From the NCBI RefSeq assembly GCF_039724765.1, contig NZ_CP155729.1, forward strand, positions 2,489,501 through 2,553,500: a stretch of 64,000 bases of DNA. Reading direction: 5' to 3'. The stretch comes from Sagittula stellata E-37. Its GTDB lineage: Bacteria; Pseudomonadota; Alphaproteobacteria; Rhodobacterales; Rhodobacteraceae. The notes under the pieces are model-generated. The model saw only the letters and a program-made list of their open reading frames with translations, searched no databases and was not told where the DNA came from. Each line of letters opens with the position of its first letter. Positions within the stretch are counted from its first letter, which is position 1. The translations under genes and the position numbers were made by a program. This document shows, in pieces, positions 40,673-50,568 of this stretch.

Positions 40673-41355
40673 CGCTCGAACGGATAAGACCGGCCAAGTC
40701 GCTGGCCGAAACCGCCGCTGCGCAAATCCGGGACGCCATCCTGTCGGGTGCGTTTCGGCTGGGGGAAAACATTTCCGAGGATCGGCTGGTGGAACGGCTC
40801 GGCGTCTCGCGCACGCCGGTCCGCGACGCCATGGCGCTCTTGGCGCGTGAAGGTCTGGTGGTGGTGCGCCCCAAGCGTGGGTCCTTCGTGTTCCAGACCT
40901 CGCCGGAGGATATCAAGGCGATCTGCGATTACCGCGAACTTCTGGAAACCCAAGGCGTGCGGGTTGCGTTGCGGGTCGCGCGACACCCCTATCTCGACGA
41001 GTTGGCCTCGGTGGTCACGGCCATGGAAGACGCCCTGGCCAGGGACGACGCCGACACCTACGGGCGGCTGGACACGCAGTTTCACAACGCCGCCTTCACC
41101 CATTGCGGCAATTCCTATCTGCGCGATGCCAACACGCTTGTGGCGGGGCGCATCGCCGCGCTGCGTGCCAACATCACGGCGCCCTATGCGGAACGACGTG
41201 CGGAATCCATGGCTGAACACGTGACAATGACCCGGCTGCTGGCCGATGGCGATCTGGAAGCCTTCGACGCCGCACTGAATATTCACATTCGCAGGACAGA
41301 GGACGTGTACAGCCGTGCCCTGGTCGACGGCCATCTGGGCGCGCACCGCGGGTGA
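40669..41355 (+). CDS. GntR-family (FCD domain) transcriptional regulator
   Basis: A 228-residue regulator: winged HTH (ETAAAQIRDAILSGAFRLGE, ERLGVSRTPVRDAMALL) and an FCD effector domain (DTQFHNAAF, HVTMTRLLADGD). No ATG is available near the family N-terminus; GTG 40669, overlapping the tctA stop as GTGA, is the natural start (VTLERIRPAKSLAE). It probably represses this dehydrogenase/tct operon in the absence of substrate. Confidence 0.88.
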   Translation: MTLERIRPAKSLAETAAAQIRDAILSGAFRLGENISEDRLVERLGVSRTPVRDAMALLAREGLVVVRPKRGSFVFQTSPEDIKAICDYRELLETQGVRVALRVARHPYLDELASVVTAMEDALARDDADTYGRLDTQFHNAAFTHCGNSYLRDANTLVAGRIAALRANITAPYAERRAESMAEHVTMTRLLADGDLEAFDAALNIHIRRTEDVYSRALVDGHLGAHRG

Positions 41356-41774
41356 GACCAGGGTGTGATCGAGAGTGAGAACGGCAGGCTCTTGTGTGCC
41401 GGATGACGCAGATCGGCCTGACAGGTCTCAAGCGTAGAATTCGAAGCCGTCTGAATGTCCAGTACGCCCTTGCTAGGGCTGAAAGCTGCGGCCGGTGCTG
41501 ACAGTTGGAACCGGCTTGCCACGCGCCTCATACATGCTCCGGACTAAACCTCAGACCGCCATCCCGCGCTTCACTTTGTCCTGATCGACGCGGCAGTGAA
41601 GGCGTTCGTGGATTTCCGAAGGCGCGCTGGGTGCCATGTCGGGACCTTCAAAAGGTTCAGAAAACTGGCCCTCCTATCGGTGCCCAAAAATTTCCCCTTG
41701 TGGTACCACGGAAGCTGGCCCGATGCGGTGTAGCCCATATGCAGCGCAGCCGTATCGGGCCAGCGGGGGCGTGG
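41356..41774. other. Gene-free stretch at the edge of an IS graveyard
   Basis: No gene is recognised. The right half (from about 41690) lies immediately beyond the IstB-like stop codon and may be the outer end of the IS21-type remnant; I could not define a terminal repeat. Confidence 0.4.
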
Positions 41775-42341
41775 TCATTCGCGGGTCTTGAAGCCCCAGC
41801 TCTCGTTGCCAGTTTCGACGATGTCACAGTGCTGTGTCAGGCGGTCGAGGAGAGCCGTGGTCATCTTGGCATGCACTGCCCGGCAGTGCATTGCGAAGCA
41901 TTGTCACGAGAGGGGCCAAAGACGGAAGGCCATTCGCCAAAGTCGAGGTTGGTCTTCAGGTCCCCGACCGTCGCCCGTTTCCGCCATTTGGCCACCGTCT
42001 TCGGGTTGATGCCCAGTTCCCGGCTTAGGGCCAGACCCGCCATGATCTGGGCGAAGACGCCGTTCTCGCTCCAACGTTTCCAACGGTTTTAGAGCGTCTT
42101 GTGGGGGCCATACTCCCTTGGGGTGTCGCGCCAACGCAAACCGTTGCGATTAATGAAGGTTATGCCATTCAGAACACATCGATCATCAACTAGGGGCTCG
42201 CCATCGGACATCAGAAAGCAAGGCTCTAGACGTGCCATCTGTGCGTCGCTCAAACAGATAAGATCAGACATGGTAACCACCCATTTTCGAACGGTGAATC
42301 ATCCACGCCAAACCAAACCAAACCAATTGGTCCTGACCCTA
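41775..42341 (-). pseudogene. Chimeric transposase remnant: IS427 + IS481-like + IS21 IstB pieces
   Basis: Read on the minus strand: an IS427-type left end (TAGGGTCAGGACC at 42341) and start MSDLICLSDAQMARLEPCFL, carrying a nonsense codon after HKTL (TAC to TAA). It runs in the same frame to QIMAGLA, where it switches at about 42029 to an IS481-like helix-turn-helix (ELGINPKTVAKWRKRATV). At about 41950 it switches again to the IstB C-terminus (GEWPSVFG ... [21 protein letters not shown]). The IstB part is split by a 41-bp insertion at 41874-41914. None of the parts can be functional. Confidence 0.75.
41874..41914 (-). repeat. 41-bp palindromic micro-insertion, copy A (in IstB remnant)
   Basis: Relative of the two copies at 49301 and 49675, in reverse orientation. 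Read on the minus strand it starts CCCTCTCG, contains the hairpin arms CAATGC and GCAATG around TTC, and ends CTGCCGGGCAGTG. It interrupts IstB between VFG and the residue before [11 protein letters not shown]. Two base pairs of the hairpin differ from the other copies with compensating changes. Confidence 0.8.
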
Positions 42342-42592
42342 CTTGACCGAAGCCGTCCAGAATAGCGAGGTGTCGGCATGAACCACGATCAGACCCGCGC
42401 GACGGCGAAACTGCGCGAGCAACTGCAAGAGACGCTGCGTGACCGAGATGCGTTCCATGGCAGGCCGACCCAACGGCTTGCTCTCGGACCGCAGCGCAGT
42501 TGATCGACCAAGAGCGGCAGTCGCCGTGGGCGCTCTGCCATACCATCGAGCAAATCGACGTTCTGCGCAGCGGCCTTGCCGCAGCGAAGGTG
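42342..42592 (+). other. Unrecognised remnant between IS elements
   Basis: The plus strand can encode MNHDQTRATAKLREQLQETL from 42378 and, in another frame, QLIDQERQSPWALCHTIEQI ending at the TGA in front of the IS3 element. Together they look like one short coiled-coil-like protein broken by a frameshift. I do not recognise the family. Confidence 0.35.
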
Positions 42593-42631
42593 TGAGCTAC
42601 TCCCCATCTCTTGGACAGTATCTGGCGTAAA

Positions 42632-43507
42632 TTAAGCTACTCGTTGCACCTGCTGACCGGGTTGGTTGATATCATTTCTCTGCCAATAGACCAGCGCCGG
42701 TGGCTTGCCGCCGAGGGCTGAGTGAGGGCGCTGGTGGTTGTAGAAGGTCATCCATTTCCGGATCACCGCCTTCGTTTCCGATCCTGTCTCCCAGGCATGC
42801 AGGTAGACGCACTCGTATTTCAGGGTGCGCCACAGCCTCTCGATGAAGATGTTGTCGAGAAACCGGCCTTTCCCATCCATCGAGATCTTCACGCCCGACC
42901 GGCGGAGCCGATCCGTCCAAGCGAAGGGCGTGAACTGAGAACCCTGATCCGTATTCATTATCTCGGGCGGGCCGAACTTGTGGATGGCCTCGTTCAGCGC
43001 CTCGACACAGAAGTCGGCCTCCAGCGTGTTCGAGATCCGCCAAGACAGAACCTTGCGGGTGTGCCAGTCCATGATCGCCACGAGGTAGAGGAACCCGCGC
43101 CGCATGGGTAGGTAGGTGATATCCGAGCACCAGACCTGGTTCGGACGCTCCACCCGCAGCCCTCTCAGCAGATATGGATAGGTCTTGTGGCCCTTTGCTG
43201 GCCTGCTGGTGTTGGGTTTCTGGTAAATCGGCATGAGCCCCATCAGGCGCATCAGCCGCCGTATCCGCTTCTCGTTCACCGGGTGTCCGTCGTTACGCAG
43301 GTGCCAAGTCATTTGCCGGACGCCGAAGAACGGGGTCTCCAAGAACTGCTCGTCGATCCCCCGCATCAGGCAGAGGTTCTGTTCGGTCTCGCCCTTGGGG
43401 GTGTAGTAGAAAGACGAGCGCGCGATCGACAGCAGCTTGCACTGCTGGCCGATCGATAGGTCCGGGTGGTCAGGCTCGATCATGCCGCGCCTCACTTCCC
43501 GCCCCAA
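42632..43507 (-). CDS. IS3-family transposase OrfB (DDE integrase domain)
   Basis: A frame of 291 codons with an HTH_21-like region and an rve integrase core. The catalytic triad is visible: WCSDITYLP, NTDQGSQFT and IFIERLWRTLKYE. It overlaps the OrfA frame by 16 bases in another register, as expected for production of OrfAB by -1 frameshifting. Confidence 0.92.
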   Translation of the reverse strand: MGREVRRGMIEPDHPDLSIGQQCKLLSIARSSFYYTPKGETEQNLCLMRGIDEQFLETPFFGVRQMTWHLRNDGHPVNEKRIRRLMRLMGLMPIYQKPNTSRPAKGHKTYPYLLRGLRVERPNQVWCSDITYLPMRRGFLYLVAIMDWHTRKVLSWRISNTLEADFCVEALNEAIHKFGPPEIMNTDQGSQFTPFAWTDRLRRSGVKISMDGKGRFLDNIFIERLWRTLKYECVYLHAWETGSETKAVIRKWMTFYNHQRPHSALGGKPPALVYWQRNDINQPGQQVQRVA

Positions 43508-43785
43508 GGCTTCAGCTTTCGTTCCAAAAAAGAGTTGGCCACCGCCAGCTCCCCGATCTTGGCGTGGAGCTCCTTCACCTGCTCCTCGTCAATCTCGGCC
43601 TTCTTGCGGCTCCCGCGCTCGAAAACGCCCGACGCGCCTTCGAGCAGGGCACGCTTCCATTGATGAATCATCGTTGGATGCACCCCGAACCGGCTCGCCA
43701 GCTCGGCCGCTGTCTCTTCACCCTTCAGGGCTTCCAGCGCGACCTTTGCCTTGAACTCAGGCGCGTGCTGCTTGCGTTTCGACAT
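43492..43785 (-). CDS. IS3-family transposase OrfA
   Basis: A 97-residue HTH_Tnp_1 protein: MSKRKQHAPEFKAKVALEAL, the helix-turn-helix AAELASRFGVHPTMIHQWKR and a leucine-zipper-like C-terminus (EQVKELHAKIGELAVANSFL). It binds the element ends. Confidence 0.92.
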   Translation of the reverse strand: MSKRKQHAPEFKAKVALEALKGEETAAELASRFGVHPTMIHQWKRALLEGASGVFERGSRKKAEIDEEQVKELHAKIGELAVANSFLERKLKPWGGK

Positions 43786-43865
43786 CTCTGATCTCCTTCT
43801 CGTCGAAGATCAGCAGACTGCAAATCGTAGCTTATGTCAGTGTCCGAATTTCGGGGGGCAGCTCA

Positions 43866-44269
43866 CTGTGAACCGCCCAATGTTGTTGAGTTGTTGCAGA
43901 GCCTACCGAAAACGACGAAGGCCGCTCCGCGGTCGGCCTGTATCGTTTTGTAATCTATATGAGATTTTGGATCCGACGGTGGGGTGCGGAGCCATTTTCG
44001 CCGATACCTCTTAAGCCATTGATTTGGTTCTGTGCCCCGCCGAAATTCTCACGCCGGAAGGCTGGATTTGTGTGCCGCGTTTGTGCCGAAGGTGCTCCGG
44101 GTGTGTGCGGCCATGGGTCAGCATTATATCCCGGGTAAAGAGGACGTCGAGATCATCTAGTGAATGCGTCATTGTTTCCGACGATGTCGCCGTCAGCTAA
44201 GCCGAAAATCGCGTCGGCTGATCAGGTCGCATCACCCAGAACGTCGAACAGTTCGCGGGGAGCAAACAC
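43866..44269. other. Gene-free stretch containing a diverged tRNA-Asn end
   Basis: No gene is recognised between the IS3 element and the protease gene. The segment 43891-43984 repeats the sequence at 49962-50044, including a terminator-like hairpin (CCGCTCCGCGGTCGG context at 43922-43937) and the diverged attachment-like core. Confidence 0.6.
43963..43984. repeat. Third, diverged tRNA-Asn-type attachment core
   Basis: 19 of 22 bases match the core at 50023 and at the tRNA-Asn 3' end (GATTTTGGATCCGACGGT then GGGG). About 70 bases in front of it also match those in front of the 50023 copy. It probably marks an older insertion at the same tRNA. Confidence 0.6.
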
Positions 44270-46240
44270 CTATTCTTGACGCATCACCCGGATATTGATG
44301 TGAAAACTTTCGTCCCATTCGCCATCCTCGAAAGTGATCGCGCGGCCGGTTGTCCAGCGTTTCGCCAGCTGTTCGTTCAGGTCCAGCACTTTGGGGCGTG
44401 GTTTGCCGAACAGAAAGTTGATGGTCGAACGCAGCTTCAGCCTACCGTCGGGCGAGAGCGACACGCGCAGGTCTTTGTAGGCATCGCTCTCGACGCGCGC
44501 CAGATCCTGAAAGCCCAGCACGTCGGTGCGGCCATTTTCCACCCGGATTGCAACGGACCCGATCGTCTCGATCTTGCCGGGCCGATAGGCGGGGTCGGGC
44601 TTGCGCCGGTGATAAGCGTCGTCCCAGCGGCGGCGGATGAAGATGCGATAAGTGCCATCCAGTGTGGCGGGCGCGCCGTTGTATTCGTCGGCGATGCGGT
44701 CCAGCAGGCTGGCGGACAGATAGCCGCTTTCCTCGATCAGGTTTTCCTTTTGAAAGGCGCGGACGGCACTACGTGAGGCCGGGCCGAACAGCCCGTCCGG
44801 TTCCCCAAGCCCATAGCCAAGCGCGTCCAGCGTGTGCTGGATGTCGCGGTATTCTTCGCGGGAAAAAGCCAGCGCGGCCTCAGCCTCTTCGGGCGACAGT
44901 TCGGGGGCCGTGTCGGGAGAGGGCACCGGTGTGTTCAGCAATGCGGCAAAGCGGTTGTCCGACCCTCGGGAGGCGGGCTCGGGCTTGGTGGCCCGCGGCG
45001 CGGGTGCAGGACTGTCGAGCTGGGTCAGGGCCAGTTGCGCAGCTTGTGCGGCCATGGTGGCGGGGTGGTCCTGGATGACCTGTTGCAAGGCGGCGGAGCG
45101 GGCGGTGCTGTCAGCCACACCCAAGGCGGCGAGCAGCGCGGTGTTGGCGCGGCTCTCACGCGCGACGGTGGCGCGGGCGGCGGCACTGTCGGCCTGCTCG
45201 GCGGTTGCACGGGCGGCCGCGGCCCTTGCGGCCTCTGCCTCGGCGGCCAGTCGTTGGCGCTCGGCCTCGGCTTCGGCGAGGATGCGGGCCTTTTCATCGG
45301 CCAGCGCCGCTTTTTCCGCCGCGAGGCGCGCGCGCTCTGCCTCGATGTCGTCGCGCACAACGTCTGTCTGCACCGACGCTTTGAGCAAGTTGGACGTGGC
45401 GAGGATGTCGGCCATGGGCACGGCAAAGTTCACCGCCCCGGCGCGCGATCCGGCATGGTGCAGCGCCACCACCTGCTTGAGGTCGGCATCGATCACCGGA
45501 GAGCCGGAGTTGCCCGGCAAGGTATCGCAGGTGTGCCGCAACCGACCCGAGGCGACGGCGGGACTGTCGGTCTGGCATTTCTCGCGGCTGATGCGCTGCG
45601 CCTCGCCCATGGGATGGCCGATCACCCATAGCGGGTCGCGGTCACCGGGCAGCGCGGCCGACAGATCGAGCGCGCCGAATTCGGCATTGGCATCGCCCCC
45701 GACCACTTGCAGCACCGAGTAGTCGAGATCCTTGTTCGTCTCCAGAGGGATTGGATTGACGTGGAACATGCGGGTGCCGTCCTCGATCCCGTCGCGCACA
45801 TAGCCAAGGCGGATCTGGACGGCGATAATCGCGCTGGCCCCCAGCCGGTCATTGTCAAGGATTCCGGGCACACAGTGGTGGTTGGTCACCAATCGGTTGC
45901 CGTCGACCAGGAAGGCGGTGCAGGGCGCGTGGCCCTTGTCGGTCAGGATATCCAGCCGCCCGACCGGCCTCCCCGTGCGGGCAAAGACAGAGGTCGCACC
46001 ATAGTTCGAGATGAACTCGTTGTTGTAGTCACCGATCTGCGCCTCCAGTTCGGCTCCGGCAAGGGCGGACTGGTTGCGCGACAGAACGGCATTTCCAAAG
46101 GTGCTGGCGTCGAACATCAGCAGATCCTGAGCTGGGGCTGCCTGCGCCAGAAGGAGCACGCCGCTCAATACGGAAAATGTGTGTTTCAATCGAGTTCTCC
46201 CGCATGGTTCTGGGCGATAAAAGGCCAGTTTAAAAGTCAT
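44270..46240 (-). CDS. Secreted trypsin-like serine protease with peptidoglycan-binding domain
   Basis: A 656-residue exported protein. Residues 1-38 contain a signal peptide; a TTG at 46189 preceded by GGGAGAACTCGA (MKHTFSVLSGVLLLAQ) may be the true start. The chymotrypsin-fold triad is H122 (VTNHHC), D173 (KDLDYSVL) and S245 (TLPGNSGSPV). An alanine/glutamate-rich coiled coil covers about 305-400, then a Pro-rich linker, then a peptidoglycan-binding-1 repeat (TLDALGYGLGEPDGLFGPAS). It likely acts in the periplasm or at the wall. It has no operon partner and lies between two attachment-like repeats. Confidence 0.85.
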   Translation of the reverse strand: MTFKLAFYRPEPCGRTRLKHTFSVLSGVLLLAQAAPAQDLLMFDASTFGNAVLSRNQSALAGAELEAQIGDYNNEFISNYGATSVFARTGRPVGRLDILTDKGHAPCTAFLVDGNRLVTNHHCVPGILDNDRLGASAIIAVQIRLGYVRDGIEDGTRMFHVNPIPLETNKDLDYSVLQVVGGDANAEFGALDLSAALPGDRDPLWVIGHPMGEAQRISREKCQTDSPAVASGRLRHTCDTLPGNSGSPVIDADLKQVVALHHAGSRAGAVNFAVPMADILATSNLLKASVQTDVVRDDIEAERARLAAEKAALADEKARILAEAEAERQRLAAEAEAARAAAARATAEQADSAAARATVARESRANTALLAALGVADSTARSAALQQVIQDHPATMAAQAAQLALTQLDSPAPAPRATKPEPASRGSDNRFAALLNTPVPSPDTAPELSPEEAEAALAFSREEYRDIQHTLDALGYGLGEPDGLFGPASRSAVRAFQKENLIEESGYLSASLLDRIADEYNGAPATLDGTYRIFIRRRWDDAYHRRKPDPAYRPGKIETIGSVAIRVENGRTDVLGFQDLARVESDAYKDLRVSLSPDGRLKLRSTINFLFGKPRPKVLDLNEQLAKRWTTGRAITFEDGEWDESFHINIRVMRQE

Positions 46241-46641
46241 TCTGAAATCCGTTCAGGCCGTTGAAGGGCGACCCGACCGCAGCCTAGGCCAAATCGCCTT
46301 GTATGCCAATCATCAAGGCCCGCCGAGTTGGGGCGGGCCTTTTGACCGTGCGGGTGGTGTCCGAAAAGCGTATTGGTTCGCACGCTGCTTGGATACAACG
46401 GTGGGTTTGCTGAAGCGTCCAAGGTCCGGGGGAATCCAAAATGCCCGGTTTCGAGCCTACCGTACTCAGCCGCATGCTTGCTCGCCTGTCCCGCTTGGAG
46501 GCTCACCGGCTTGGGGACAAGGCAAGGCCCACTACCGGAGTTCGGTTGATTTAACCCTTGTTGGCAGTGCTCGGTGCATGGCGATTGGGGCAGCTTCGGT
46601 TGAAGATCTCGGGTAGCTTGAGACTACCGGGAAAATGCGTT
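46241..46641. other. Gene-free stretch with a terminator-like hairpin
   Basis: No gene is recognised. GGCCCGCC and GGCGGGCC pair around GAGTTGG at about 46317-46339 and TTTT follows on the plus strand, so it would end a plus-strand transcript, though no plus-strand gene precedes it. Confidence 0.5.
46317..46343 (+). terminator. Rho-independent terminator-like hairpin
   Basis: An 8-bp GC stem (GGCCCGCC / GGCGGGCC) with a short loop, followed by TTTTGA. It has the classical form; the gene it once served is not present. Confidence 0.55.
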
Positions 46642-47440
46642 TTACCGCACGGGGCTTTTTTCCCGGTGCGGTGCAGGATCGCGTGCCGTTCGGTATGCGT
46701 CAGGGGCGTGTTGTCCTGCCGCGATCTTGCAAGGCAGCGCGGCGAGTGCATTCACAAGACGCATCTGTTCGACCGTTTCGCAACGGCTGTCGCGCAGACG
46801 AGACGTGCCAAAGACCAAGGCCAGCGCCTTGGCGCGGGAGACGGCAACGTTCATCCGGTTGCGGGAGAAAAGAAAATCCATGCCGCGTGAAGGCTCTTCT
46901 GCACTGGCGGCGGTCATCGAGACGAGACAGACAGGCGCCTCCTGACCTTGGAACTTGTCTACCGTGCCGCCGCGCACCTCAGCGAGCAAGGCGTCGCGCA
47001 GTGCATTGACCTTGGCGTTGAAGGGCGCGACGACGATGGTATCCGATCCTCGCAAAGGGCGCCGGGTCGGGCCGTCTCGCCAAGTTCCACGGATCAACCG
47101 GGCAATGCAGTCCCGGATCGCGGAGATTTCCTCGTATTCAATCTGGGTGTTGCCCTCATGCGCGACATCGATCCACCACGCGCCGGTTTCGGGCATACCT
47201 TCGACCTGAACCGAAGGGGCGGCGGCGGTGTCATGGGCGCTCAGGCGGCCTGCATAGAATTGATCCGAGACATAGGCACAAAGGTCGGGATGCATCTGGC
47301 GCGACATCGGCAGGAAGATTCCGCGGTCCTCGGACACCGTGGTCTGGTTGCCTCGCATCCATTCGAGACACGACAGGTTTGCCGGTTCCGGGTGGCCGTC
47401 CCCGATCACTTGCGGCAGCTGGTTCGGATCGACGAGCGGA
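46642..47440 (-). pseudogene. Superfamily 1 helicase, C-terminal fragment
   Basis: The minus-strand frame (open to 47511) carries the C-terminal part of an AAA_11/AAA_12 (UPF1-like, RecB-nuclease-associated) helicase: DPNQLPQVIGDGHPE, ANLSCLEWM, PMSRQMHPDLCAYVS, VVAPFNAKVNALRDAL, TVDKFQGQEAPV and FSRNRMNVAVSRAKAL. The Walker A half is missing: above about 47440 the sequence becomes the phage terminase fragment on the other strand. The C-terminus also reads into unrelated sequence after EQMRLVNAL. Remnant. Confidence 0.8.
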
Positions 47441-47519
47441 TGCCAAACTACGATGCGAACGGACGGCAAGAACTGACTAAACGCCGCCGCGAGATCGTGC
47501 AGGCGGACCATCTGCCCGC

Positions 47520-48000
47520 AATGTCATACGCCGACCTCGCCATCGTGACCCGGAACCTGATGGTGGACCCGTCCATCGCGGGCCGAGCCTATCTCGTCGT
47601 GGATTCCTCTGGCGTCAGGCGGGCATTCTGCGACCTGCTCGACACGAAGCCGGTCCAGCACACCCGCGTTCAGATGGTGGCCCGGGAGAACGAGACGGAA
47701 ACCACCGAACGCGGGCGCACCTTCAACAACGTGGGGCGAACCCGGATCTTGTCGGCGCTAAACTGGGCAATCCACACGGGCGACCTTTCCATCGGCAACT
47801 TCGCGGACCTTGGCCTCATGCGCCAAGAGCTTGAGAGCTTTGAGGCCGATGTGGGATCGAGCGGGCGCGTGAGGATCGAAGGGGGCACGAAGTTCGGCCA
47901 CGCGGACCTTGCCGTTTCCGCCGCGCTGGCGCTGTGGCTATCCGATCACCGCAGCGTCGGCGCACACATCGGGCAAGTGCCGCTCAAGGGCTACTGGTAA
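47520..48000 (+). pseudogene. Phage terminase large subunit, C-terminal fragment
   Basis: The plus-strand frame ending at 48000 reads AYLVVDSSGVRRAFCDLL, RGRTFNNVGRTRILSALNWA and GTKFGHADLAVSAALALWLS up to QVPLKGYW. This is the nuclease-domain end of a large terminase. The ATPase half and start are absent; upstream the frame enters the antisense of the helicase fragment. Evidence of a lost prophage. Confidence 0.75.
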
Positions 48001-48180
48001 AGCGCCCGGGCAGTGCGTCGATCTCGTGTGGTGTTTTCGTTTCGCCAATACCGTTTGTGCCAGAACCGGCCACACGCACATTAGACGGGCGCTCGGGCGG
48101 TCATGGTTTAGTGCCTAGGTTCAGGACCCATTGATTTGGTTGAGCGAGCGTGATTCACCGTTCGAAAACGAGCGGTGAAC

Positions 48181-48528
48181 ATGTCTGATCTCTACTGGTT
48201 GAGCGATGCGCAGATGGCGCGTCTGGAGCCTTACTTCCCCAAGTCGCACGGCAAGCCCCGGGTTGATGACCGGCGCGTTCTGAGCGGTATTATCTTTATC
48301 AATCGCAATGGATTGCGGTGGCGAGATGCGCCAAGGGAATACGGCCCGCACAAGACACTCTACAACCGCTGGAAGCGGTGGAGCGATAGAGGCGTCTTCG
48401 CCCGGATCATGGCCGGGCTGGCGGGCGAGCATGGTGAGGAGACGACCGTGATGATCGACGCAACTCATCTGAAGGCCCATCGCACGGCGTCCAGCCTGGG
48501 CGTGAAAAAGGGGGGCGTGGACGGCTGA
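48181..48528 (+). CDS. IS5/IS427 transposase, first frame (copy 2)
   Basis: Identical in translation to the frame at 30200, with the first catalytic Asp in MIDATHLKAHR and the A/G slippery run before the stop. It begins at ATG 48181. Confidence 0.87.
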   Translation: MSDLYWLSDAQMARLEPYFPKSHGKPRVDDRRVLSGIIFINRNGLRWRDAPREYGPHKTLYNRWKRWSDRGVFARIMAGLAGEHGEETTVMIDATHLKAHRTASSLGVKKGGVDG

Positions 48529-48548
48529 TTGGCCGGACGAAGGGAGGC

Positions 48549-48938
48549 ATGAACACGAAGTTGCACGCCGTCTGCGACAGCCATGGCCGGCCCATCGACC
48601 TGTTCCTGACTGCCGGCCCCGTCAGCGACTACATCGGGGCGCGTGCGCTGGTCGGCGGGCTGCCAGACGTGAAATGGCTGCTCGGAGATCGCGGCTACGA
48701 TGCCGACTGGTTCAGAGAAGCCTTGCAAGACAAGAAGATACGCCCTTGCATCCCGGGCCGGACGAAACGGAAGACGCCCGTCCCGTACGACAAGCGCAGG
48801 TACAAGCGTCGCAACCGGATCGAGATCATGTTCGGCAGGCTCAAGGATTGGAGACGGGTGGCGACCCGTTATGACCGATGCCCAAAGACCTTCTTCTCAG
48901 CGATCGCACTCGCTGCGACCGTGATCTTCTGGCTTTGA
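48549..48938 (+). CDS. IS5/IS427 transposase, second frame (copy 2)
   Basis: Identical in translation to the frame at 30568; supplies the second Asp (GDRGYDADWF) and the Glu (RNRIEIMFGRLKDWRR) of the DDE site by -1 frameshifting. Confidence 0.85.
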   Translation: MNTKLHAVCDSHGRPIDLFLTAGPVSDYIGARALVGGLPDVKWLLGDRGYDADWFREALQDKKIRPCIPGRTKRKTPVPYDKRRYKRRNRIEIMFGRLKDWRRVATRYDRCPKTFFSAIALAATVIFWL

Positions 48939-49300
48939 GAGAGAACGAGTCCTGACCCTAGGGTCAGGCTGCATTGATTTCGCGCGAACAGCATGATTCA
49001 CGGCTTCGAAAACGGAGCGATGACATGAGCGATCTCTTCTGGCTGACCGACGTGCAGATGGCGCGCCTGGCCCCTTTCTTCCCGAAGTCCCACGGCAAGC
49101 CTCGTGTTGATGACCGGCGTGTTTTGAGCGGGATTATCTTCATCAATCGCAATGGCTTGCGTTGGCGGGATGCGCCGAAGGAGTATGGTCCGCATAAGAC
49201 GCTCTACAGCCGGTGGAAGCGGTGGAGCGAGAAGGGCATCTTCGCCCGGATGATGGCAGGTCTGGCCGCTGAGCACGGCGAAGAGAAGACCGTGATGATC

Positions 49301-49341
49301 CCCTCTCGGGACATCACTTCGTGATGCCCTGCCGGGCAGTG
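49301..49341 (+). repeat. 41-bp palindromic micro-insertion, copy B
   Basis: Starts CCCTCTCGGG, contains the hairpin CATCAC-TTC-GTGATG and ends with a second hairpin CTGCCGGGCAG plus TG. It sits exactly between the codons for I and the catalytic D of VMIDATYLKAHR and matches the copy at 49675 at 39 of 41 bases. Confidence 0.85.
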
Positions 49342-49674
49342 GACGCGACATATCTGAAAGCACATAGACCGGCGACCAGCATGGCCGCAAAAAAGGGGGG
49401 GCGCGGTCACCTGATCGGTCGCATCAAGGGCGGCATGAACACCAAACTGCACGCCATCTGCGACAGTCAGGGACGACCGATCGACCTGTTCGTCACCGCG
49501 GGACAGGTCAGCGACTACATCGGAGCACGGGCGCTGCTCAGCGGCCTACCAAACGTCAAATGGCTGCTCGGGGATCGGGGCTACGACGCTGACTGGTTCA
49601 GAGAAGCTTTGCAGGACAAGGGGATACGCGCCTGTATCCCAGGCCGAAAGAAACGCAAGACGCCGGTCAAATAC

Positions 49675-49715
49675 CCCTCTCGGGCCATCACTGCGTGATG
49701 CCCTGCCGGGCAGTG
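49675..49715 (+). repeat. 41-bp palindromic micro-insertion, copy C
   Basis: Starts CCCTCTCGGG, contains CATCAC-TGC-GTGATG and ends CTGCCGGGCAGTG. It sits between the codons for Y and D of VKYDQRRYKRR, 374 bases downstream of copy B in the same gene and orientation. Confidence 0.85.
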
Positions 49716-49908
49716 GACCAGCGCCGATACAAGCGGCGCAATCGCATCGAGATCATGTTCGGAAGACTCAAAGACTGGAGGCGTGTGGCCACCCGATATG
49801 ACCGGTGCCCGAAGGTCTTCCTTTCGGCCAGCGCCCTCGCCGCCCTCGTCATCTACTGGTTATGAATCCTGAGCCTAACCTGCCGCAACGCACTCTTTTG
49901 AAACCCTC

Positions 49909-49931
49909 GCCGCGCCTTCGGGCGCGGCCTT
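49909..49931 (+). terminator. Rho-independent terminator-like hairpin
   Basis: GCCGCGCC (49909-49916), TTCG, GGCGCGGC (49921-49928), then CTTTCC. A compact tetraloop hairpin just beyond the IS element. Confidence 0.55.
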
Positions 49932-50022
49932 TCCGTTGCGCAACCGCCTAAGGTTGTATAGTTGTTGCATAGCCTACCGAAAACGACGAAGGGCGGCCTT
50001 TATCGTATTGTAATCTCTATTA

Positions 50023-50044
50023 GATTTTGGCTCCGGCGGTAGGG
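50023..50044. repeat. Attachment-site repeat (distal end of the tRNA-Asn island)
   Basis: 22 bases identical to 57599-57620, which form the last 17 bases of the tRNA-Asn gene plus 5 bases beyond (core GATTTTGGCTCCGGCGGT, then AGGG). This is the duplication expected after integration at the 3' end of the tRNA. Recombinase genes lie between the copies. Confidence 0.8.
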
Positions 50045-50568
50045 GCCTCTCCGCGCAGCCAAGTCCCTTTGATTTCAAAGGAATTTCCGACGCGACCGTG
50101 CACCGGCTCCGGATGGACTCCAAGATGTGCCCGGAGTCGTGTCGTACATCGGGCACCAGATCAAGCACTATCAGCAGCCTCGCGCGGCAAGCCGTGGAAC
50201 GGGCGGCGAAGGTCGCCTTGCCGGAGCATGCCGAGATGGTCGCGGCTCCACGCGGGCACCGCGTCCCGGACCAGCATTTCGAGCAGCGATGCGAAGGGGG
50301 CAGCTGACCGCTGCGATGCAGCACTTTGGGCCGCCGTGTGACGTCTGATCGGGTCCCTTTATGCCTGTCCGGAGGGCGACTAAAATGGCAACCCGATCAG
50401 GAGCCGGAACAGGGAGAGTGCACCGAGCGGCGAGACGGCTTCCTCGAAAAGAGTGTCGGTGACGGCGCTGTCCAAGGCGGCGTTTTCGATCCCGGCATCG
50501 ATGACCAAGTCTGAGCCCATCTGAGCGGCACCCGGACATTTTTGCGCGCATGCAAAGGAGAACATGAT
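50045..50568 (+). other. Island end without recognised gene
   Basis: No gene is recognised in about 520 bases. A perfect inverted repeat CCTTTGA-TT-TCAAAGG lies at 50066-50081, 21 bases inside the attachment repeat, where recombinase or excisionase arm sites could be. An AAAGGAG ribosome site closes the stretch. Confidence 0.5.

Follow-up and report, generated by a model that had tools for sequence, protein, structure and literature searches.

Results

Three insertions in genes of insertion sequences

The window, a stretch of 64,000 nucleotides from the Sagittula stellata genome, contains three copies of a 41-nucleotide (nt), two-hairpin element, here called family A, inside genes of insertion sequences (IS). 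Copies 1 and 2 are separated by 333 bases within one IS427-type transposase gene and agree at 39 of 41 positions; copy 3 lies in an istB remnant. The gene holding copies 1 and 2 was placed in the IS5 family by a homologue (L021) and the NCBIfam model transpos_IS5_3, and the name IS427 is that of an earlier note on this DNA. The features are as follows.

41874..41914, minus strand: diverged family A copy 3, within an istB (IS21) remnant that is read on this strand too (63.7 bits, E 9.5e-13)
48130..48960, plus strand: intact tandem IS neighbour, a natural empty-site control for both insertions (alignment)
48974..49880, plus strand: filled IS427-type (IS5 family) copy holding copies 1 and 2 (alignment with the intact neighbour)
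49300..49342, plus strand: junction 1, ATC / element / GAC (filled/empty alignment)
49301..49341, plus strand: family A copy 1 (68.4 bits, E 5.8e-14), with 5' box at 49301-49308, stem 1 with a bulged A at 49309-49328, hairpin 2 (CTGC CGG GCAG) at 49329-49339, then TG
49674..49716, plus strand: junction 2, TAC / element / GAC (filled/empty alignment)
49675..49715, plus strand: family A copy 2, in the same IS427 gene as copy 1 (66.8 bits, E 1.6e-13)

When the filled copy (48974-49880) is aligned with the intact one (48130-48960), exactly two gaps of 41 nt appear, at ATC^GAC and TAC^GAC, the caret marking the point of insertion. The boundaries are unambiguous, and neither IS427 junction has a duplication of target bases in this alignment. 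For copy 3, an insert-free homologue, an IstB protein, was found in L098. The earlier note had described three such copies, each interrupting an otherwise alignable transposase and followed by an Asp codon. Coordinates, strands and the 39/41 identity all hold, as does the interruption; the Asp codon is present at the two IS427 sites, whereas in the istB copy the codon after the insert is now CAT, with GAT or GAC in two homologues. All three copies have the sense orientation and stand between codons.

Sequence and structure of family A

A BLAST search with the region against its own genome yielded further copies, and 14 copies could be aligned in 42 columns. A near-constant 5' box, CCCTCTCG, is followed by the first stem (eight pairs and a bulged A), by a near-constant hairpin 2 (CTGC CGG GCAG) and by two more bases, mostly TG. 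Copies thus start with CCCTCTCG and end with CTGCCGGGCAGYG or near variants of these, and their two ends do not form inverted repeats. Most are 41 nt long (121 of 174 copies), with model matches ranging from 36 to 53 nt.

Stem 1 varies yet remains paired, and the 5' box and the second hairpin are constant. Pairing is found in 93.5% of the cells of the 14 copies, against 77.5% in shuffles and 23-52% with the partner slid, the structure tested being drawn from the same 14 sequences and so favoured over its slid versions. Changes on both sides affect 8 of the 12 pairs (shuffle mean 4.0) and 24 cells (shuffle mean 6.7), values reached in 0 of 500 shuffles, and every pair of the first stem has such a change in at least one copy. 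The folding of single copies, computed as DNA, is unremarkable (z -1.0 to -2.3); the support for the structure is covariation, not folding energy. The earlier note's proposal that the structure is kept by paired changes agrees with these counts. Compensatory changes could also arise by template switching between the arms, without selection. A search of Rfam 15 with window positions 41000-50500 gave no match up to E 1.

At the usual IS5 site in another locus (L132:967), a remnant, CCCTCTCGGGCAGCG, resembles a family A copy with the middle deleted.

Abundance and spread

A covariance model run on the 5.3-Mb genome gave 44 matches at an E limit of 0.1; 40 have values below 1e-4, and the best has 1.8e-14. 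Among 61 relatives, 19 have matches at E up to 1e-3, comprising 18 of the 37 genomes of the same family and one weak match outside it; in a wider draw from the family with one genome per genus, 60 of 198 do so at a limit of E 1e-6. Of the 72,556 plasmids of PLSDB, 101 match one 41-mer, and the genera are of Rhodobacteraceae type among the matches listed (all but 41 records); most of the listed copies coincide with no feature in the plasmid gene table, which omits pseudogenes. Phages were rejected, the 50,697 records searched giving a single match that is weak and partial.

A scan of genomes with a two-box pattern returned at least 120 stretches, in which the boxes are conserved partly because the pattern demands them; this bias does not affect 13 of the 14 copies in the structure alignment or the covariance-model searches of the own genome, the relatives and the wider draw. 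About 30 of the scanned stretches are labelled outside Rhodobacterales or vaguely, most of which reach no more than about 26 bits or have no model match. The higher and middle scorers among them are L104 (68 bits, an alphaproteobacterium), L090 (38, Labrenzia) and L146 (30, Kitasatospora), as well as L184 (71 bits), which is labelled Enemella but whose matches agree with contig G005:C7, placed in the window's family.

A structure like family A also occurs beside an EF-Tu gene, both in the own genome (L061 and L062, which have one and the same flank, at C1:4419574 and C1:4446387; E 3.4e-5) and in another genus (L216, E 1.0e-5). These apparently intergenic structures are possibly a relative or a source of family A, or a chance likeness.

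Insertion mode and target

The absence of the inserted bases from intact relatives, exact at both IS427 sites, extends to other loci: for 113 of 162 sites with long flanks, a match among the sampled loci was counted as an empty homologue, although some of the 113 are only 60-70% identical, a few are doubtful and one matches a filled copy (L151 337 vs. L086). The alignment is ungapped at the junction in 72 cases, and the remaining empty homologues are off by a base or two near a C run, or by more. In L162 and L166, filled and empty flanks are 96% identical over 222 bases, which suggests that the insertion there was fairly recent.

Across 174 sites, homologous ones counted separately, the position before the element is C in 122 and the following four are G in 124, A in 115, Y in 145 and R in 134, with little signal beyond +5. 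The target is thus C^GAYR, carrying about 3 bits in all, mainly on the right side, and GAY is present at 86 of the 174 sites. Read on the corresponding side, YRTC precedes the element but is present in empty sites too.

Among the 133 sites with a clear host strand, 75 insertions are sense and 58 antisense, and the 73 sites spanning a homologue have codon phases of 40, 17 and 16. Insertion confined to the sense strand and to one codon phase is therefore ruled out. As both orientations and all codon phases occur, the Asp codon that follows the insert is a by-product of a DNA-level preference for C^GAY, and a rule at the codon level is excluded. That phase 0 is in excess fits a target that resembles an Asp codon together with sites common to related IS. 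A DNA-level target also argues against an intron or translational bypass. Were the element a mini-intron or bypass element acting in RNA, the interrupted transposases would still be made, and this would suit the three sense, between-codon copies of the window and the multiplication of IS with several inserts (see below). It has against it the 58 antisense sites and the spread of codon phases, the mismatch between the insert's last codon and the codon preceding the insert, and the host gene of one further examined copy, which has additional stops and a frameshift; we regard it as extremely improbable. Integron-type and self-splicing readings are, by reasoning, a misfit with the junctions. We instead favour, with a probability of about 0.7, the reading of family A as a non-autonomous palindromic mobile element that is moved as DNA, perhaps single-stranded.

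Concentration in insertion sequences

To describe the host genes, we combined 192 matches (97 of 117 and 65 of 98 from two locus model searches and 30 of 44 from the own genome) into 177 distinct flank contexts; the rows dropped were mostly weak (about 33-35 bits or less) and duplicates of one place. The joined flanks, compared in six frames with open frames of other loci, found a match for 156 of the 177. At 139 of the 177 sites, the flanks fall into clusters whose representatives NCBIfam names transposase or IS helper, these labels coming from one representative per single-linkage cluster and from a flank frame chosen by a heuristic that is at times wrong. The host families are IS3, two IS5 groups, IS481, IS110, IS66 and its TnpB, IstB, IS256, IS91 and IS1182, and one further site lies in a tyrosine recombinase like those adjoining IS91 transposases. 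The other 37 sites have no automatic label; about 14 of them are transposase by eye, and about 20 have no host assignment. Most copies, but not every one, are thus in mobile-element genes, a point that the earlier note had raised, and with 177 flank contexts in about 10 IS families, vertical descent of a single IS does not account for them. Among the unassigned sites, one resembles an RHS protein and one adjoins EF-Tu.

In an independent scan of 140 single-flank frames (of the 177), IS5 was found in up to 34 and IS3 in 25 (Pfam was scanned too). In a control of 114 flanks at random positions on the same contigs, each transposase family occurred at most twice; the 114 came from 140 positions, overlapping ones being left out, and a few of these controls are themselves IS genes. 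The bias towards IS genes is genuine and strong, if not expressible as an exact share, and insertion in identified non-IS genes is only rare. A target logo of about 3 bits is insufficient to account for this concentration.

IS copies with the element inside have multiplied, the ATC^GACAGC site being found in six copies, and some IS copies carry three to five insertions. Related IS5-type copies of the own genome share family A inserts (C1:1224k, 1961k, 3035k, 3346k and 3945k and C2:403k, one of them at a contig edge). They mostly hold three each, and at least three of them have the family B pattern and a family C-type insert, described below, as well. Given the shared inserts, the interrupted IS5-type element has multiplied.

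The concentration could arise by survivorship, with insertion anywhere at C^GAY, purging of the copies in cellular genes and tolerance of those in IS, which then disperse them. The multiplication of IS copies with an element inside accords with this, and mobile DNA is a frequent home of group II introns for like reasons. Many intergenic copies would be expected, however, and few or none could be made out in the 177 contexts, which were classed by host gene and of which about 20 are unassigned; the three to five insertions in single IS copies are also at odds with it. We consider this explanation possible but rather unlikely.

Other micro-insertions in the same genes

Comparison of transposase genes with their relatives revealed other structured micro-insertions. 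Family B is about 37 nt long, with the loop CGCCATTGGTCCGAG in a variable stem, and is found in transposase genes, often beside family A. Family C, of 56-62 nt, has a variable stem (e.g., AACGATCC-GGG-GGATCGTT) and a common GAACGGGCGGAGCCC part and is found in IS5 and IS66 genes. Examples are as follows.

L131:2595-2639: family B
L193:1687-1704: family B
L118:5483-5506: family B
L019:859-910: family B
L013:773-838: family C
L011:1203-1272: family C
L115:7167-7242: family C

The B-loop pattern occurs at eight places in the own genome, seven of them within 0.3 kb of a family A match (the exception is C1:3469616), and 10 of 30 loci with the pattern, drawn from 13 genomes and including chance matches, contain a family A match. 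Within 0.7 kb, a single IS5 copy contains four A and one B, and one IS66 has a C-type insert together with two A found by the model and one or two more seen by eye.

This crowding, together with a target logo too weak to explain the concentration in IS, is what would be expected if a host or element-borne process attacked IS, small hairpin DNAs of the three families breaking transposase genes as a repeat-directed defence. Against such a process, no effector gene was identified, IS copies bearing inserts still multiply and the exceptional B-pattern place has no A nearby, and we judge it distinctly unlikely. In a broader form, the IS of Rhodobacteraceae would be the specific prey of several unrelated small hairpin elements (A, B and C) inserted into transposase genes by a system that recognises IS as such. 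That system could be a parasite specific to IS or the bacterial equivalent of transposon silencing directed by repeats; we offer this as a speculation that is probably wrong.

Shared sites and descent

Four target sequences of IS5, IS427 and IS3 genes are shared by groups of 10, 12, 12 and 6 copies, the third group mixing sites, with only 15 of its 66 pairs having flanks 0.60 or more alike. Within the groups, the flanks are 0.67-0.75 alike and the elements 0.81-0.90. Elements from unrelated sites are likewise 0.81 alike, because of their constant ends, and we therefore rejected same-site copies as proof of repeated insertion. The variable middle is 0.77, 0.80, 0.68 and 0.87 alike within the four groups and 0.695 between unrelated sites, and same-site pairs with clearly different middles number 13 of 35, 19 of 66, 8 of 15 and 0 of 12.

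Sharing of sites is partly descent; another part, judged by the middles, may come from recurrent insertion or from a stem that changes quickly. Descent alone, in the form of a few early insertions per IS family that were carried along as the IS diverged and moved, would explain why the middle is more alike than the unrelated baseline at three of the four sites and why the same inserts recur across IS copies. It is hard to reconcile with the number of distinct flank contexts, the value of 0.68 at the remaining site, the pairs with different middles and the nearly identical filled and empty flanks of L162 and L166, and mainly old vertical inheritance appears very unlikely.

Proposed mechanism and candidate enzymes

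As a mobile DNA element, family A would insert in either orientation, preferably between C and GAY-R, and without duplicating target bases. It may move as a folded single strand, read 5'-YRTC / CRYTGCCCGGCAG..CGAGAGGG-3', which an HUH-type enzyme, or another that makes no target duplication, would cut and join. The target would then adjoin hairpin 2, as in the IS200/IS605 and REP systems, and subsequent spread from genome to genome would be as a passenger of the host IS.

Non-Watson-Crick pairs bear on the strand that folds. On the top strand, stem 1 has 14 G-T and 26 A-C pairs (100 of 134 distinct elements; 30 of the 134, with fewer than five Watson-Crick pairs by a simple rule, were omitted) and hairpin 2 has 10 and 31 (131 of 134), giving 24 G-T and 57 A-C cells in both hairpins with related copies counted separately. 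The excess of A-C over G-T on the top strand means that wobble pairs prevail on the bottom strand, a bias in the sequences that is suggestive of the bottom strand being the folding one. Along the bottom strand, target YRTC comes first, then hairpin 2, hairpin 1 and the tail CGAGAGGG, and target followed by hairpin is the polarity of IS200/IS605 and REP systems.

A RAYT/Y1 transposase was rejected as the present mobiliser: the Y1 family (PF01797) has 0 members in the S. stellata genome, and of the 7 family genomes that have at least four family A matches, only G010 has one. Y2 transposases are present in 5 of these 7 genomes and in 2 of the 30 others (37 family genomes), an association that might simply reflect genomes rich in IS. 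In five Y2 elements, the conserved end has no likeness to family A, and the IS91/Y2 copy of the own genome is a degraded fragment without ends; IS91/Y2 is an unlikely but possible mobiliser. Neither did the sampled loci reveal a longer autonomous relative with a gene between the same ends. Of 152 3'-box matches in the loci, 8 have no recognised 5' box, some being degenerate, and of 209 5'-box matches, 14 have no recognised 3' part; none is obviously a long element. The 3'-box pattern has matches in 18 of the 37 genomes, few of which were inspected. An enzyme guided by structure alone would not explain the preference for IS genes, and this counts against our best explanation.

Discussion

Insertion of family A is precise, its ends are constant and its stem covaries, and it is present in many genera with a strong concentration in transposase genes. 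The earlier reading, of a small structured element inserted in transposase genes and foreign to the intact genes, is supported. Family A is a real and widespread palindromic micro-element and apparently an undescribed one: the literature searched, judged by titles and the starts of abstracts and with subscription papers mostly outside its scope, gave no description of it or of palindromic elements preferring transposase genes, and the earlier note likewise knew of no described family with this form. We therefore treat its novelty as provisional. The concentration in insertion sequences is its most interesting point. Family A may explain many broken transposases of an abundant group, and it offers a bacterial system for testing mobility without target duplication and without a known enzyme, with a striking preference for transposase genes.

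Among known mobile elements, family A lacks the terminal inverted repeats of a MITE of a DDE transposon and has no duplication at the two IS427 sites. Members of IS200/IS605 make no target duplication, have hairpins near their ends and keep the target 5' on the folded strand; their known non-autonomous derivatives are larger. Like these derivatives, family A inserts without target duplication and 3' of a short target on what is probably the folded strand, but they use Y1 (TnpA), for which the S. stellata genome has no gene.

The small palindromic repeats known so far are chiefly extragenic, and those of the GTAG type have GTGG as an alternative tag. GTAG REPs with RAYT (Y1) transposases are extragenic hairpins of 20-40 bp, one end of which bears a constant tetranucleotide, whereas family A is mainly inside IS genes, has no GTAG tag and is accompanied here by no Y1 gene (PMC3733652). 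CGTC REPs, which include dRS3 and Rickettsia RPE-4/6, are mostly alphaproteobacterial and apparently without a dedicated transposase; they end in CGTC, often TGTC or CCTC, and have a single 8-9 bp stem opening with A-T pairs and a tail CCA (PMC3733652). Family A has two hairpins, not one, and neither stems starting with A-T nor the CCA tail; the tag is part of the CGTC repeat, whereas YRTC appears to be a target preference of family A and is found in empty sites.

By form, there are likenesses in mitochondria. The double-hairpin elements of Allomyces and Schizosaccharomyces are small G+C-rich units of two hairpins, scattered and potentially mobile (PMC10085805). Family A likewise consists of two adjacent G+C-rich hairpins and is scattered; the mitochondrial elements, compared by description only, differ in residing in mtDNA, mostly between genes and with no preference for transposase genes described there (PMC10085805). 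Yeast mitochondrial GC clusters (GC42) are 42-nt palindromic units of high copy number and rapid turnover whose mechanism is debated; they lie mostly between genes, with direct repeats of AG or ACT on either side, in contrast to family A, which has no direct repeats at the tested junctions and is mainly in IS genes (PMC4478555).

The palindromic repeats Br-REP1 and 2 are treated in PMC5082802, which refers to work on insertion sequences that target small palindromic repeats. Family A reverses this relation, its palindromic units settling inside insertion sequences; it is new in its niche and its combination of features and akin by kind to REP and double-hairpin elements.
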